DNA from: Lactococcus sp. S-13
GTDB taxonomy: Bacteria; Bacillota; Bacilli; Lactobacillales; Streptococcaceae
Assembly: GCF_004210295.1 (NCBI RefSeq)
Contig: NZ_SDAK01000001.1
Span: 1,612,001-1,676,000 of the forward strand
Direction of reading: 5' to 3'
DNA length: 64,000 nucleotides
How positions within the stretch are numbered: the first letter of the stretch is position 1; the number at the start of each line of letters is the position of its first letter. Made by a program: the position numbers and the translations under genes. Shown one piece after another: positions 58,634-63,996 of this stretch. The notes beneath the pieces are model-generated. The model was given only the letters and a program-made list of their open reading frames with translations, was not told where the DNA came from and searched no databases.

Positions 58634-59191
58634 TCAGTTGTAAACTGCTTTTAGGTTAAATTTGAGATATTTGATTAACCAAAAATAAAGTAGTTTTGTA
58701 AATTTCCAAATATAAGGAAGTCCTAGAATAGTCAATGAGCAACCAACAATCCCCAATAGCCAATACCACCAATCAAAACCCGTTGCTCCTGTAGCGTTGA
58801 TGAAAGTAATCGAAGGGTTGTGTGTGGCTGTAGCAAAAATCATCAAGAAAGGGGCAAGTAGTAAGGCTAAAAGAACCATATAAACAGCGGCAAGAACTAG
58901 TACAATAGCAACAATGAGCCAGACACCAAGCACAAAATTAAAGAGCAAGATGCCAAATCCGGCGAAAAGATTGAGGTGTTTTTTTCTTTTTTGAGGTTGG
59001 ATTCCTTCGGTTAATGCAGTTAAGTCAGTGTCATAAATTTGGGCTAGTGAAATCAATGTTTCAAGATTTGGTTCTGTCTTTCCGGCCTCCCAACGCGAAA
59101 TGGCTTGACGACTGAAATAAAGTTCTTTTGCGACTTCCTCTTGGGTTAAATTTTGGGCAAGTCGTGCTTTTTGTAGATTTTCTCCGAGCAT
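58634..59191 (-). CDS. XRE-type HTH protein with membrane tail (185 aa)
   Basis: An N-terminal XRE helix-turn-helix (NLQKARLAQNLTQEEVAKEL, RQAISRWEAGKTEPN; residues 5-42) and a cytoplasmic linker precede three hydrophobic segments (about 74-98, 98-122 and 145-165). Membrane-tethered XRE regulators of this plan sense envelope or small-molecule signals in some Firmicutes; the signal here is unknown. The ATG at 59191 has an AAGGAG site. It is one of three such genes within 3 kb. Confidence 0.82.
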   Translation of the reverse strand: MLGENLQKARLAQNLTQEEVAKELYFSRQAISRWEAGKTEPNLETLISLAQIYDTDLTALTEGIQPQKRKKHLNLFAGFGILLFNFVLGVWLIVAIVLVLAAVYMVLLALLLAPFLMIFATATHNPSITFINATGATGFDWWYWLLGIVGCSLTILGLPYIWKFTKLLYFWLIKYLKFNLKAVYN

Positions 59192-59376: not shown

Positions 59377-59853
59377 CTATTTTTTTAATCGGATTGTTTT
59401 GATTGTCCAAAGACTAATAAAGTAAAGTGGAATGGCAAGAAAAATAAAGAAAGTAAATTTGCCAATTTCCAAGAGGGTAGCTCCATTAGAAAAACTGAGT
59501 ATAGAGTAAGCTACTCCTCCCAAGAGTAGTCCCCATAAGCAAAAAAGCCAGAGGAAAAGAGCGAATTGTAGATACTTGAACCAGAAAAAATTTATTCTCA
59601 TCATATCTTGGATATAATCTCGATTTATTTTAAAGAAGTTACTTTGTTTAGGTGTGACAAGTTCTCTGATAAGTTCATCCGTTGTACAGCTGTAGAGATT
59701 ACTTAAGTCTTTTAGATAGTAAATATTTGGAAGTGTTCGGTCAGTTTCCCAACGTGAAACAGTTTGTCTTGTAACAAATAATTTTTCTGCGACTTCTTCT
59801 TGAGTAAACTGTGATTTTATTCTTGCTTTTTGCAAATTTTCTCCAAAAGTCAT
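59377..59853 (-). CDS. XRE-type HTH protein with membrane tail (158 aa)
   Basis: An XRE helix-turn-helix (GENLQKARIKSQFTQEEVAEKL, RQTVSRWETDRTLPN; residues 4-43) is followed by about 40 residues and two membrane segments (about 95-120 and 128-152). Closely similar at the N-terminus to the 58634-59191 protein, so they are probably paralogues. The ATG at 59853 has an AAGGACACC site. It diverges from ychF, and the promoters share a 130-base space. Confidence 0.8.
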   Translation of the reverse strand: MTFGENLQKARIKSQFTQEEVAEKLFVTRQTVSRWETDRTLPNIYYLKDLSNLYSCTTDELIRELVTPKQSNFFKINRDYIQDMMRINFFWFKYLQFALFLWLFCLWGLLLGGVAYSILSFSNGATLLEIGKFTFFIFLAIPLYFISLWTIKTIRLKK

Positions 59854-60002: not shown

Positions 60003-61118
60003 ATGGCTTTAACAGCAGGTATCGTTGGTTTACCCAATGTTGGTAAATCAACACTTTTTAACGCAATTACAAAAGCAGGCGCGGAGGCTGCAAACTATCC
60101 TTTCGCAACAATTGATCCTAATGTTGGTATGGTTGAAGTTCCAGATGAACGCTTGAACAAATTGACTGAGTTGATTAAACCGAAGAAAACTGTTCCAACT
60201 ACTTTTGAGTTTACTGATATTGCAGGAATTGTTAAAGGGGCTTCACGGGGTGAAGGTTTAGGGAATAAATTCCTAGCCAATATCCGTGAAGTGGACGCGA
60301 TTGTCCACGTTGTTCGTGCTTTTGATGACGAAAATGTTATGCGGGAAAACAATCGTGAAGATGCCTTTGTAGATCCAATGGCAGATATTGAAACCATCAA
60401 CTTGGAATTGATCTTGGCAGACTTGGAATCGGTCAATAAACGCTATGCGCGTGTTGAAAAGATTGCTCGTACAGCAAAAGATAAAGAGGCGGTTGCAGAA
60501 TTTAACGTACTGAAAAAAATCAAACCTGTACTTGAAGATGGAAAATCAGCACGTACAGTCGAGTTTGATGAAGACGAAGCAAAAGTTGTCAAAAGTTTAT
60601 TCTTATTGACAACGAAACCAGTGCTCTATGTGGCAAATGTTTCTGAAGATGAGGTGGGTGAGCCTGATAATATTGAGTACGTCAAACAAATTCGTGAATT
60701 TGCGGCGACTGAAAATGCAGAGGTTGCTGTGATTTCTGCACGCGTGGAGGAAGAAATTTCAGAACTTGAAGATGATGAAAAAGCAGAATTTTTAGAAGCG
60801 ATTGGTCTGCATGAGTCTGGTGTAGATATGTTGACTCGAGCTGCTTATCATCTTCTGGGACTTGCGACTTACTTTACAGCCGGCGAAAAAGAAGTGCGCG
60901 CATGGACCTTCAAACGAGGAATGAAAGCTCCTCAGATGGCTGGAATCATCCACACAGATTTTGAGAAAGGATTTATCCGTGCTGTAACGATGTCGTATGA
61001 GGATTTACTTAAATATGGCTCAGAAAAAGCTGTTCGTGAAGCTGGTCGTTTGCGTGAAGAAGGTAAGGAATATATTGGTCAAGATGGAGATATTATGGAG
61101 TTCCGTTTTAATGTGTAA
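60003..61118 (+). CDS. ychF: Redox-regulated ATPase YchF (Obg-like)
   Basis: YchF/OLA1-type P-loop NTPase, 371 residues, which binds ATP more readily than GTP and associates with ribosomes in stress control. G1 is [19 protein letters not shown]3 [17 protein letters not shown], and a TGS domain ends the chain ([41 protein letters not shown]). The start at 60003 has an AAAGGAA site and begins the family N-terminus [12 protein letters not shown]; a longer in-frame start at 59901 precedes the promoter. The last 42 codons are duplicated in diverged form at 61622-61750. It contains a Chi sequence (60446-60452). Confidence 0.97.
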
Positions 61119-61144
61119 AGCTTTAGTGTAAACCTGATAAATTT

Positions 61145-61173
61145 TGAAAATGCACCGGATTGGTGCATTTTTG
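61145..61173 (+). terminator. Terminator of ychF
   Basis: AAAATGCACC and GGTGCATTTT arms with a five-base loop, followed by T residues. Confidence 0.8.
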
Positions 61174-61243
61174 CAACCTGAAAGTGCTTGTGGAGCAAGA
61201 TAAAAAGCGTTATGCTTAAGGCATGACATGAAAGGAAAGCAAC

Positions 61244-61582
61244 ATGGAAATTTCGGAACTTATCAAAGAAAATCGTAAACTGAAAAAGCTTAGTCAAGAA
61301 GATTTGGCAAAACAACTCCATATTTCACGTCAATCTATCTCTAAATGGGAAACTGGAAAAACACTACCCACGACTGACCAGTTGATTCTCTTAAGTGAAA
61401 TTTTTGATTTGTCTTTGGACACGTTGCTCAAAGGTGACCCCAATATGAAAGAAAAAGTGAAAAAAGAAAGTAGCCAATTTTTGTGGTGGAAAGATCCGAT
61501 TACCCGCCGGATTATGTTTGTTTTTTGGTCGGTAATCATTCCGCTCCTCTTTATCTTGAAGTATGTTCTCCATCTATTTTAA
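61244..61582 (+). CDS. XRE-type HTH protein with one membrane helix (112 aa)
   Basis: An XRE helix-turn-helix (LIKENRKLKKLSQEDLAKQLHI, RQSISKWETGKTLPTTD; residues 5-45) and a charged linker are followed by one C-terminal membrane helix (IMFVFWSVIIPLLFILKYVL, about 89-108). The ATG at 61244 has an AAAGGAAAG site. It sits between ychF and a second, diverged copy of the ychF tail, so it lies next to a recombination join. Function unknown; membrane-tethered regulator by inference. Confidence 0.8.
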   Translation: MEISELIKENRKLKKLSQEDLAKQLHISRQSISKWETGKTLPTTDQLILLSEIFDLSLDTLLKGDPNMKEKVKKESSQFLWWKDPITRRIMFVFWSVIIPLLFILKYVLHLF

Positions 61583-61618
61583 AAGAAAAGTCGAAAATTT
61601 TTAAAATTACTTACACTA

Positions 61619-61750
61619 TGGATGTCTTATGAGGACTTAATTAAATACGGTTCTGAAAAAACCGTCCATGAAGCTGGGCTCCTGCGTGAAGAAGTCAAAG
61701 ACTACGTCGGCCAAGATGGTGATATTATGGAATCCCGCTTTAATGTGTAA
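61619..61750 (+). pseudogene. ychF 3'-end fragment (diverged duplicate)
   Basis: Translating from 61622 gives MSYEDLIKYGSEKTVHEAG and on to [13 protein letters not shown] with a TAA stop at 61748-61750. It matches the last 42 residues of the complete ychF at 34 positions. Codons differ widely from the intact gene (for example GTC, GGC, GAC and CGC are used), so it is not a recent copy of it. There is no start or ribosome site. It looks like the tail of another strain's or species' ychF. Confidence 0.88.
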
Positions 61751-61770
61751 ACTTGACAATCTATCTAAAT

Positions 61771-61815
61771 AAAAATTGAGTTAAATTTTTTCTAACTCAA
61801 TTTTTATTTTTTTTA
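61771..61815 (+). terminator. Terminator after the ychF fragment
   Basis: AAAAATTGAGTTA and TAACTCAATTTTT arms with a nine-base loop followed by a T run. It was presumably the terminator of the donor's ychF. Confidence 0.85.
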
Positions 61816-61864
61816 TGATAAAAGTCTGAAAATTACGATAAACTGAGAAAAGTAGGAGGTTCTC

Positions 61865-62650
61865 ATGACTTTAAAAATAGCCTTAGCTCAAATTGATATT
61901 GCTTTGGGTCAGCTAGAGCAGAATTTTAATAAGATTGCTGACTTTGTCAGGCAAGCTGCTGCGCAAAATGCTGCGGTGGTAGTCTTTCCTGAAATGTGGA
62001 ATACCGGGTACGCCCTGAGTGACTTAGGAAAATTAGCAGACCCACAGGGGCAGCGTAGTCAGCAAGTCCTGTCTCAGCTAGCCAAACAGTATCATATTAA
62101 CATCGTAGGCGGCTCTGTTGCCACAGCCAAAGCGGGCAAGTTTTATAACAGTCAGGTGATTGTTGATTGCGAGGGGCAAATCCTTAGCAACTATGACAAG
62201 GTTCACCTGTTTGGACCTATGGACGAAGAAAAATATGTGTCTAGAGGCTCTGTTGACAACGTCTTTGACCTGGCTGGGGTCAAGTCAGCCGGTGTGATTT
62301 GTTATGATTTACGCTTTCCAGAATGGGTGCGTACTCAGATGAGACAAGGAGCGAAAATCCTCTATGTGGTAGCAGAGTGGCCTGAGCAAAGGATTGAGCA
62401 GTGGAAGATTTTGCTGCAGGCCAGAGCGATTGAAAATCAAGCTTTTGTGGTGGGGGTCAATCGAGTGGGAGCAGATCCTAACAACCGCTTCAACGGTCAT
62501 TCCTTGGTCATTGATCCCTTGGGAAAAATTTTGTTGGATGTTGGTCAAGAGGAAACTTTACAAGTGGCTGAGCTAGAATTGGCTCAAGTGGAGCAGGTAA
62601 GGGGATTTATTCCGGTATTCGCTGACCGCAGACCAGAACTTTACAAATAG
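61865..62650 (+). CDS. Carbon-nitrogen hydrolase, omega-amidase type (MtnU-like)
   Basis: A 261-residue nitrilase-superfamily amidase. The catalytic triad is visible as glutamate in FPEMWNTGY (near 42), lysine in YDKVHLFG (near 111) and cysteine in GVICYDLRFPEW (near 145). Close relatives (YkrU/MtnU, Nit2) hydrolyse 2-oxoglutaramate or 2-oxosuccinamate, the by-products of glutamine- or asparagine-dependent transaminases. An aminotransferase gene follows 33 bases on, which fits exactly. The ATG at 61865 has an AGGAGG site. It uses more C- and G-ending codons than the rexBA and ychF genes. Confidence 0.88.
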   Translation: MTLKIALAQIDIALGQLEQNFNKIADFVRQAAAQNAAVVVFPEMWNTGYALSDLGKLADPQGQRSQQVLSQLAKQYHINIVGGSVATAKAGKFYNSQVIVDCEGQILSNYDKVHLFGPMDEEKYVSRGSVDNVFDLAGVKSAGVICYDLRFPEWVRTQMRQGAKILYVVAEWPEQRIEQWKILLQARAIENQAFVVGVNRVGADPNNRFNGHSLVIDPLGKILLDVGQEETLQVAELELAQVEQVRGFIPVFADRRPELYK

Positions 62651-62683
62651 GGTTTACAGAACTGTAAACTGTAGGGAGAAGAA

Positions 62684-63859
62684 ATGAAATTTTCAGAATC
62701 AGAACTGATGCAACAACTACCTAAACAATTTTTTGCCAGCTTGGTCTTGAAGGTCAATGCAAAAATTGAGCAAGGTGTGGACGTGATTAACTTAGGACAG
62801 GGTAATCCTGATCAGCCAACCCCAGAATATATTGTCAGGGCTGCTCAAGCAGCTACCGCTAAGCCACTCAACCATAAGTATTCCCCTTTTCGAGGTCGGC
62901 ATGATTTAAAAGTGGCGGCCAGTCAGTTTTATCAAGAAAAATATAAGACTAGTTTTAATCCTGAATCTGAAGTGGTGATTTTAGCGGGAAGCAAGATTGG
63001 TCTGGTGGAATTGCCCTGGGCTTTGATGAATCCTGGAGACCTTCTGCTACTGCCAGATCCTGGCTATCCAGATTATCTATCTGGCTCTGCTTTGGGCCGG
63101 GTTGATTTTGAGACTTTTCCTCTCTTAGAAGAAAATGGATTTTTACCTGATTTATCAGCTATTCCTGAAGAATCAGCTAAGCGTGCTAAGTTTCTCTATC
63201 TGAATTACCCCAATAATCCGACGGGAGCAGTGGCCACACGGGAATTTTATGAAGAGTTGGTGATCTGGGCCAAACGCTATCAGATCGGCATCATTTCGGA
63301 TTTTGCCTATGGCGCTATCGGTTATGATGGGCAAGCGCCGATTTCATTCATGGAAGTGCCAGGGGCCAAAGAAGTAGGTGTAGAATTTTACACTTACTCT
63401 AAAACCTTTAATATGGCCGGCTGGCGATTAGGGTTTGCTGTAGGAAACGCGGACATTATTGAGGCTTTGAATCTGATTCAGGATCATCTGTTTGTGAGTA
63501 TATTTCCAGCTTTGCAGGAGGCGGGTATTGTTGCTCTTCAAGCACCTGAGCGCGATGCAGAAATTGCAAAATTGGTGGCGACTTATGAAGCGCGGCGCAA
63601 TGCTTTTATTGAAGCGGCAGCCAAGATCGGCTGGCAGGCTGTGGTGCCAGGTGGTGCATTTTATGTCTTCATGCCTGTACCTGAAGGATACACCAGCGAA
63701 AGTTTTTCTGACTTGTTACTGGATAAAGTTGGTGTGGCTGTGGCAGCCGCCAATGGTTTTGGGCAATATGGTGAAGGTTATGTGCGAATCGGTTTGTTGG
63801 TCTCTCCAGAGCGCTTGATCGAAGCCGTCGAACGAGTCGGTTCACTGGGATTTTTTTAA
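62684..63859 (+). CDS. PLP-dependent aminotransferase (MtnE-like)
   Basis: A 391-residue class I/II aminotransferase. The PLP lysine lies in YSKTFNMAGWRLGF (near 238), with the NYPNNPTGA substrate segment (near 171-179), SDFAYG and a C-terminal RIGLL. In Bacillus the homologue YkrV/MtnE converts 4-methylthio-2-oxobutyrate to methionine with glutamine as donor; the amidase encoded upstream then removes the oxo-acid amide. The rest of the methionine salvage pathway is not in the window, so other 2-oxo acids are possible. An AGGGAGAAG site precedes the ATG. Confidence 0.88.
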   Translation: MKFSESELMQQLPKQFFASLVLKVNAKIEQGVDVINLGQGNPDQPTPEYIVRAAQAATAKPLNHKYSPFRGRHDLKVAASQFYQEKYKTSFNPESEVVILAGSKIGLVELPWALMNPGDLLLLPDPGYPDYLSGSALGRVDFETFPLLEENGFLPDLSAIPEESAKRAKFLYLNYPNNPTGAVATREFYEELVIWAKRYQIGIISDFAYGAIGYDGQAPISFMEVPGAKEVGVEFYTYSKTFNMAGWRLGFAVGNADIIEALNLIQDHLFVSIFPALQEAGIVALQAPERDAEIAKLVATYEARRNAFIEAAAKIGWQAVVPGGAFYVFMPVPEGYTSESFSDLLLDKVGVAVAAANGFGQYGEGYVRIGLLVSPERLIEAVERVGSLGFF

Positions 63860-63958: not shown

Positions 63959-63996
63959 GTTATAATAAATGAAGTCGCTGATTTCTAGAAATCAGC
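63959..63996 (+). promoter_or_regulatory. Promoter-like -10 and leader palindrome at window end
   Basis: TGTTATAAT (hexamer 63961-63966) is followed by a perfect 20-base palindrome, GCTGATTTCT/AGAAATCAGC (63976-63995). It probably belongs to a gene beyond the window; the palindrome may begin a leader hairpin. Confidence 0.4.

Follow-up and report, generated by a model that had tools for sequence, protein, structure and literature searches.

A displaced ychF end in Lactococcus sp. S-13 most likely joins two alternative gene arrangements of the ychF-pth interval

Results

Genes and features at the ychF locus

The DNA analysed, hereafter the window, is a 64,000 nt stretch of the Lactococcus sp. 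S-13 genome (contig NZ_SDAK01000001.1, positions 1,612,001 to 1,676,000). Close to its right end lies a complete ychF gene (60003-61118, plus strand), encoding the redox-regulated ATPase YchF. The product, of 371 amino acids, contains the Pfam domains MMR_HSR1 and YchF-GTPase_C. At the DNA level the gene is 84.1% identical to ychF of L. taiwanensis, 85.8% to that of genome G008 and 86.4% to that of genome G002. A hairpin follows on the same strand (61146-61172; fold -14.2 kcal/mol, z -4.5) and aligns with the ychF-XRE haplotype of G008 and G002. The cargo of that haplotype, a small XRE-type helix-turn-helix gene (61244-61582, plus strand; Pfam HTH_3), comes next. Beyond a short join (61583-61621) there is a second ychF tail of 42 codons (61622-61750, plus strand), which is recognised by the YchF-GTPase_C model with an E value of 4e-10. 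The tail has its own terminator hairpin, with a T run (61771-61805, plus strand; fold -10.9 kcal/mol, z -5.7).

To the right of this terminator are two further plus strand genes. The first encodes a carbon-nitrogen hydrolase (61865-62650; Pfam CN_hydrolase), referred to here as the amidase, and is the cargo of the ychF-amidase haplotype. Its partner encodes a class I/II aminotransferase (62684-63859; Pfam Aminotran_1_2) that scores 641.7 bits against NCBIfam model PRK08068, for which the cut-off is 494. We presume that the two may form an omega-amidase/transaminase pair, as in methionine salvage. The sequence-only reading had described the same series of a complete ychF, terminator, XRE gene, second tail, terminator and amidase/aminotransferase pair. 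The open reading frames, Pfam matches and folds bear this out, and the interval to which it drew attention (61244-61760) spans the XRE gene and the second tail. Outside the window, to the right, are a reading frame called F11, then pth and mfd. F11 scores below the cut-off against models of DNA topology modulation proteins.

At 63977-63996 there is a palindromic element, GCTGATTT..AAATCAGC, with CTTTTGG behind it. Similar elements are found between ychF and pth in many lactococci, including lactococci with differing cargo. The element has no Rfam match at gathering thresholds, and nothing in the region from 58 to 64 kb passed these thresholds.

By Pfam, three small XRE-type genes flank ychF (58634-59191, 59377-59853 and 61244-61582), two on the minus strand and one on the plus strand. 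By eye, their products have hydrophobic C-terminal stretches. Relatives of these genes sit upstream of ychF in several related genomes.

The second ychF tail is a decaying relic

The likeness of the second tail to the end of the complete gene is far above chance (80% identity over 131 bases, E = 4.6e-28). The two differ at 26 of 129 bases and the longest identical run is 12 nt. As counted in the sequence-only reading, 34 of the 42 residues are identical (35 of 43 including the stop). The reading frame of the tail is open as far as the native stop. Four substitutions, A343T, R349L, G354V and F367S, fall at near-invariant positions; the residues replaced are kept in 96, 95, 96 and 96, respectively, of 96 intact ychF ends, a set that includes a few duplicates. 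By eye, no ribosome-binding site or Shine-Dalgarno-like sequence precedes the tail. The second tail is a decaying relic.

Over its 129 bases the tail is 82.9% identical to L. taiwanensis (G016), 82.2% to L. termiticola, 80.6% to G008, 79.8% to the genome's own ychF, 78.3% to G002 and 72.9% to G015. Some Streptococcus ychF ends also reach 82.2%. At sites that distinguish L. taiwanensis from G008 and G002, the tail matches the former at 7, the latter at 5 and neither at 3. Maximum likelihood AU tests returned p values of 0.33 for pairing with the own ychF, 0.33 with L. taiwanensis and 0.17 with G015. The partner in the best tree was L. termiticola, with support of 28/65. The tail is too short for placement in a tree. 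The sequence-only reading would be undermined were the tail closest to the genome's own ychF. Nominally it is nearer to L. taiwanensis, yet the AU test rejects neither pairing.

The terminator of the tail matches that of a ychF-amidase locus

Both hairpins are called terminators from folds of chosen stretches and the T runs that follow; a simple consensus terminator scan listed neither. The terminator of the second tail aligns with the terminator between ychF and the amidase in G015. The alignment score was 55, compared with a shuffled mean of 18.6 (standard deviation 3.2). The z value was 11.5, and the score was reached in 0 of 300 shuffles. Among 19 ychF 3' regions the match was strong in G015 alone. 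The other 18, including that of the genome's own ychF, scored 15-25, and the next best by z (G009) had its score matched in 8 of 300 shuffles.

Between the XRE stop codon and the second tail there is no stable fold. Since 61583-61621 lacks such a fold, the hairpin of the relic (61771-61805) is the first seen behind the XRE gene. It now probably closes the XRE transcript. Thus, the end of a relic gene has probably been reused as the terminator of an unrelated gene.

The left join shares no clear homology with either arrangement

Clear ychF homology in the second tail begins at codon 330 (position 61622). A gapped tblastn alignment stretches to 61598 (ychF residue 324), which may reflect a few more ychF bases or chance and would move the join by only ~24 bases. 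Downstream of the XRE stop, alignment revealed no clear homology to G008 or G002, in which this stretch is not conserved. The interval 61583-61621 therefore lacks clear homology to either ychF or G008/G002, in agreement with the illegitimate join that the sequence-only reading had proposed at one side.

The ychF-pth interval carries alternative cargo in lactococci

In a DNA search of 18 genus genomes, two same-strand matches to the ychF end were found in Lactococcus sp. S-13, together with a palindromic minus strand match at the terminator. Fifteen of the 17 other genomes had one match and two (G003 and G013) had none. In these two, ychF was detected by protein search, and inspection of the 500 nt behind the gene revealed no second tail. 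When 22 ychF ends were compared by tblastn with the same number of downstream stretches (E values up to 1; 40 best rows), the second tail was found only in Lactococcus sp. S-13; the next matches among these best 40 had E values of 0.015 or worse. The double tail is therefore not general in the genus; the 17 other genomes gave no sign of one in the parts examined.

The 22 ychF regions surveyed are from Lactococcus, a metagenome-assembled genome (MAG) and Floricoccus, and include some duplicates. In the stretches read, the core order is ychF, pth, mfd; the exception is G010, with no pth in its stretch. Optional genes sit between ychF and pth in many genomes. The interval is therefore a slot with variable cargo. 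The XRE gene was detected (E <= 1e-20) in 3 of 18 genomes, namely this one, G002 and G008, and adjoins the 3' end of ychF in the latter two. G001 and G012 have more distantly related XRE genes from this cluster upstream of ychF. The amidase was present in 4 of the 18 (this one, G006, G010 and G015), in each case downstream of ychF on the same strand and with the aminotransferase next. The order in G015 is ychF, terminator, amidase, aminotransferase, F11, a methyltransferase-like gene (by eye) and pth. In G006, F11 comes first. Hence, the donor order that the sequence-only reading predicted, ychF-terminator-amidase-aminotransferase, exists in G015. The pair is missing from L. taiwanensis, which rules out this closest named genome as the donor.

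Because of the terminator homology and the gene order of G015, the second tail can be assigned to a ychF of the amidase haplotype. Most likely it once closed a ychF with the amidase as its natural neighbour. The window would then most likely fuse two alternative haplotypes of one slot. By eye, the slot of G008 contains more reading frames behind the XRE gene, including transposase-like and ABC-transporter-like proteins.

A switch in relatedness lies within mfd

From 48.6 to 61.6 kb, every gene compared is nearer to G008 and G002 than to L. taiwanensis. To the right, the ratio of taiwanensis-type to G008/G002-type sites is 55:14 for F11, 45:30 for pth and 45:5 for the first 300 nt of mfd. F11 is 85.0% identical to its L. 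taiwanensis counterpart and 67.3% to that of G008; the L. taiwanensis F11 gene is shortened. Over its first 300 nt, mfd is 95.0% identical to L. taiwanensis; over the following 900, the figure is 75.4%. All 15 differences in the first 291 nt are synonymous. The switch falls ~3.8 kb to the right, beyond the edge of the window, at nt 354-370 of mfd (chromosome 1677420-1677436). To its left, 57 of 66 sites that separate L. taiwanensis from G002 are taiwanensis-like; to its right, 265 of 547 are. The statistic was reached in 0 of 2000 permutations. On this sequence pattern, the switch is a candidate for the homologous end of an exchange. No clear break in relatedness was found in ychF (p = 0.56), rexA (p = 0.21) or pth (p = 0.24), and pth, within the supposed block, is only weakly taiwanensis-like. 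The break tests compared L. taiwanensis with G002.

Other segments bear on how the switch is read. In the ~60 kb compared, seven further segments lean to L. taiwanensis by at least 12 points and two or three match the strength of mfd; equally strong segments leaning to G008 are also scattered over this distance. For the homologous end that the sequence-only reading called for there is a candidate breakpoint in mfd; given the similar patches elsewhere, the mfd break may be an unrelated exchange. Four genes compared between 68.5 and 74.3 kb lean to G002 (13:34, 113:183, 147:184 and 33:41), and beyond 74.4 kb the genes have no clear lean in either direction. Across 44 flanking genes, shared sites number 3879 for own-taiwanensis, 4724 for own-G008 and 4249 for taiwanensis-G008, so that the three lineages are not far from equidistant. 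The wider comparison covered G016, G008 and G002, the last as far as its contig reaches. Short reading frames were dropped, as were genes with less than 55% or 60% amino acid identity (in the two comparisons) to either relative.

DNA exchange between this genome and each of the two neighbours has probably occurred. In a tree of mfd from nt 1201 onwards, the own sequence and L. taiwanensis are sisters (95/96), so part of the closeness on the right may reflect descent. Conversely, the ychF tree disfavours this pairing (AU p = 0.042). The ychF of L. taiwanensis (G016) has a mosaic structure of its own. Over the first 258 nt it shares 98% identity with G008, and GC3 is 51-52% in its last 210 nt compared with 19-37% elsewhere in the gene. 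This mosaic could alone yield the result of the ychF tree. For trees and matrices, the second L. ileimucosae, L. termiticola and MAG copies were omitted because they duplicate G007, G017 and G014. The place of G003 was taken by L. fujiensis (L094), in which the sequence behind ychF looks alike. The matrices were built without G013, and G010 contributed neither pth nor mfd, which are absent from the stretch used.

Base composition and searches for a donor

GC3 is 42 in the second tail, 46 in the amidase, 39 in the aminotransferase and 29 in the ychF reading frame. The local contrast in codon usage described in the sequence-only reading is therefore real. As a sign of foreign origin it is weak. 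The block from the tail to F11 has a GC3 of 42.8%, the median of equal-sized coding blocks is 32.8%, and values as high occur in 4.9% of 469 such blocks from 183 kb of chromosome. In the other three genomes that carry them, the amidase and aminotransferase genes have a GC3 of 26-34%. The window also has GC-rich 4-kb blocks at 8-12 and 40-48 kb. These contain or border tRNA genes; our guess is that they also hold rRNA.

Searches of plasmid collections returned 43 records, all at 60-80% identity and 32 of them from Ligilactobacillus; the 20 listed match in the amidase, and none was accepted as the donor. In phage collections, two Enterococcus records (PQ519979.1, 4541-4667; OR846609.1, 8182-8308) contain a ychF-like stretch with 70% identity to the tail, which is either host DNA in the record or real cargo. 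Among 295 genomes sampled from a larger family, the amidase search gave 29 matches at E <= 1e-80. The best identity outside the genus was 55%, and no closer donor was found.

Discussion

Origin of the double tail

Our leading explanation, to which we give about an even chance, is that the block on the right is foreign, with a homologous right end and an illegitimate left end. The resident chromosome would have carried ychF and the XRE gene ahead of pth, as G002 and G008 still do. DNA taken up from another lactococcus would have had the order ychF-terminator-amidase-aminotransferase-F11-pth-mfd, kept in outline in G015. At the right end, homologous recombination may have taken place ~0.36 kb into mfd. 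At the left end, a non-homologous join would have linked the stretch immediately downstream of the XRE gene to the final codons of the donor ychF. In this way the genome would have acquired the amidase/aminotransferase pair and kept both ychF and the XRE gene. Left outside any gene, the end of the donor ychF would have been decaying since, with its terminator now ending the XRE transcript. Exchange with both neighbours is probable, and the tie between the mfd break and the second tail, as products of a single event, is therefore putative. Uptake would presumably have been by transformation. The sequence-only reading had put forward the same combination of one homologous and one illegitimate end, and this scenario leads.

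Were the right-hand block foreign, an ordinary left side would be expected, and ychF and rexA have no break. Were the left side foreign, ychF should be the odd gene, and here the ychF and mfd 1201+ trees disagree. The direction of exchange given above is our favoured one, and the opposite polarity has a smaller chance. The resident order would then have been ychF-amidase-aminotransferase; incoming ychF-XRE DNA, paired through homology on the left, would have joined illegitimately inside the resident ychF, leaving the resident tail and terminator in place. The newest cargo would adjoin ychF and the oldest lie behind it, as in Vibrio immunity-gene arrays. The tail, terminator, pair, F11 and pth do stand in the outline order of G015, and the pairing of own and taiwanensis sequences, sisters in mfd 1201+, is disfavoured by ychF, as though ychF were the odd gene. 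However, a left breakpoint in ychF or rexA was not found, genes leftward to 48.6 kb lean the same way, and the XRE protein is 66 and 73% identical to those of G008 and G002, so that recent import is not visible.

Three further explanations were weighed. In this lineage ychF, or its end alone, could have been duplicated locally in tandem and then have suffered deletion and decay; the AU test does not reject the tail with the own ychF. Such a duplication is improbable: the terminator of the tail is homologous to that of G015, unlike that of the complete gene, the amidase lies behind it as in G015, and the tail is 79.8% identical to the own end compared with 82.9% for L. taiwanensis. Insertion of elements at gene ends leaves a displaced tail. 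A mobile element could likewise have integrated at a specific site in the 3' end of ychF, duplicating this end, with later loss of the integrase. In the part of one report available, a pneumococcal prophage attachment site is located next to ychF, with a DUF951 gene on its other side (PMC8637289). Despite both precedents we consider such integration very improbable. There is no integrase in the open reading frame list or in a Pfam scan of the named genes (60003-63859), and no long identical core, the longest run being 12 nt with 80% identity over 129. In addition, the excerpts of one paper on ychF, attachment sites and integrases put the site on the upstream side of ychF. Least credible, and scarcely so, is a function for the 42-codon frame, as a small protein or a regulatory RNA. 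The frame is open to the native stop, but has no ribosome-binding site (by eye), is substituted at four near-invariant positions, and is unseen in the 17 other genus genomes; at gathering thresholds Rfam is empty from 58 to 64 kb.

Relation to known systems

In the excerpt available, homology-facilitated illegitimate recombination is described in S. pneumoniae, A. baylyi and P. stutzeri; one end is homologous and the other illegitimate, mostly with 3-10 bp of microhomology and generally with deletion (PMC3240628). The proposed exchange would be alike in its candidate homologous end, its non-homologous end, which is what the left join displays, and the foreign DNA trapped between. The published process was RecA-dependent by experiment, according to the same excerpt, whereas ours is deduced by comparing sequences. 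In the V. cholerae T6SS clusters, as far as the portion of the report available goes, displaced 3' ends lie between stacked effector modules and record sequential displacement (PMC5361080). Both systems have an anchor gene, stacked cargo and the displaced 3' end of an older copy between modules. Here, a 3' remnant of the anchor is followed by its own cargo, since the tail, terminator and amidase are in the G015 order. Unlike the arrays in that portion of the report, the anchor is a housekeeping gene, the cargo is metabolic or regulatory and there is a single event. On whether the module next to the anchor is the newer one, the signs differ: the ychF-XRE part has no signal of recent import, yet the own ychF disfavours the mfd pairing. 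Homology-assisted illegitimate recombination was also proposed, in the excerpt available, for dimorphic variable segments, where a single site has alternative segments (PMC2884548). The ychF-pth slot likewise has alternatives but, unlike the segments in that excerpt, the two are kept next to each other here. L. lactis is reported to undergo natural transformation (PMC11244767).

In a search of the literature on ychF, Lactococcus and recombination, no title or opening of an abstract concerned the ychF-pth slot. The process is known, and the double-tail locus is a clear but modest new example. It is a natural record of a bacterium adding optional genes while keeping earlier ones, and it draws attention to the lactococcal ychF-pth interval as a site of variable cargo. 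A broader proposition, which we regard as doubtful, is that the ychF end is a recurrent natural anchor. Lactococcal cargos would be swapped repeatedly between ychF and pth by one-sided homologous uptake, with stacked tails recording the order of arrival. If so, the ychF anchor would be a housekeeping-gene analogue of the Vibrio orphan arrays.

Other repeats in the surrounding chromosome

A scan for similar scars in 183 kb of chromosome identified seven same-strand repeat pairs within 15 kb of each other at E <= 1e-8, including the ychF tail. Among the others, one is an intergenic 97-nt repeat, one is in two tRNA genes and one is inside a single reading frame (87771-89372). The copies of the 97-nt repeat are 97% identical and lie outside the window, at chromosome positions C1:1788688-1788784 and 1791048-1791144. 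By eye, they bound ~2.3 kb containing two SDR-like genes and a TetR-like regulator gene.
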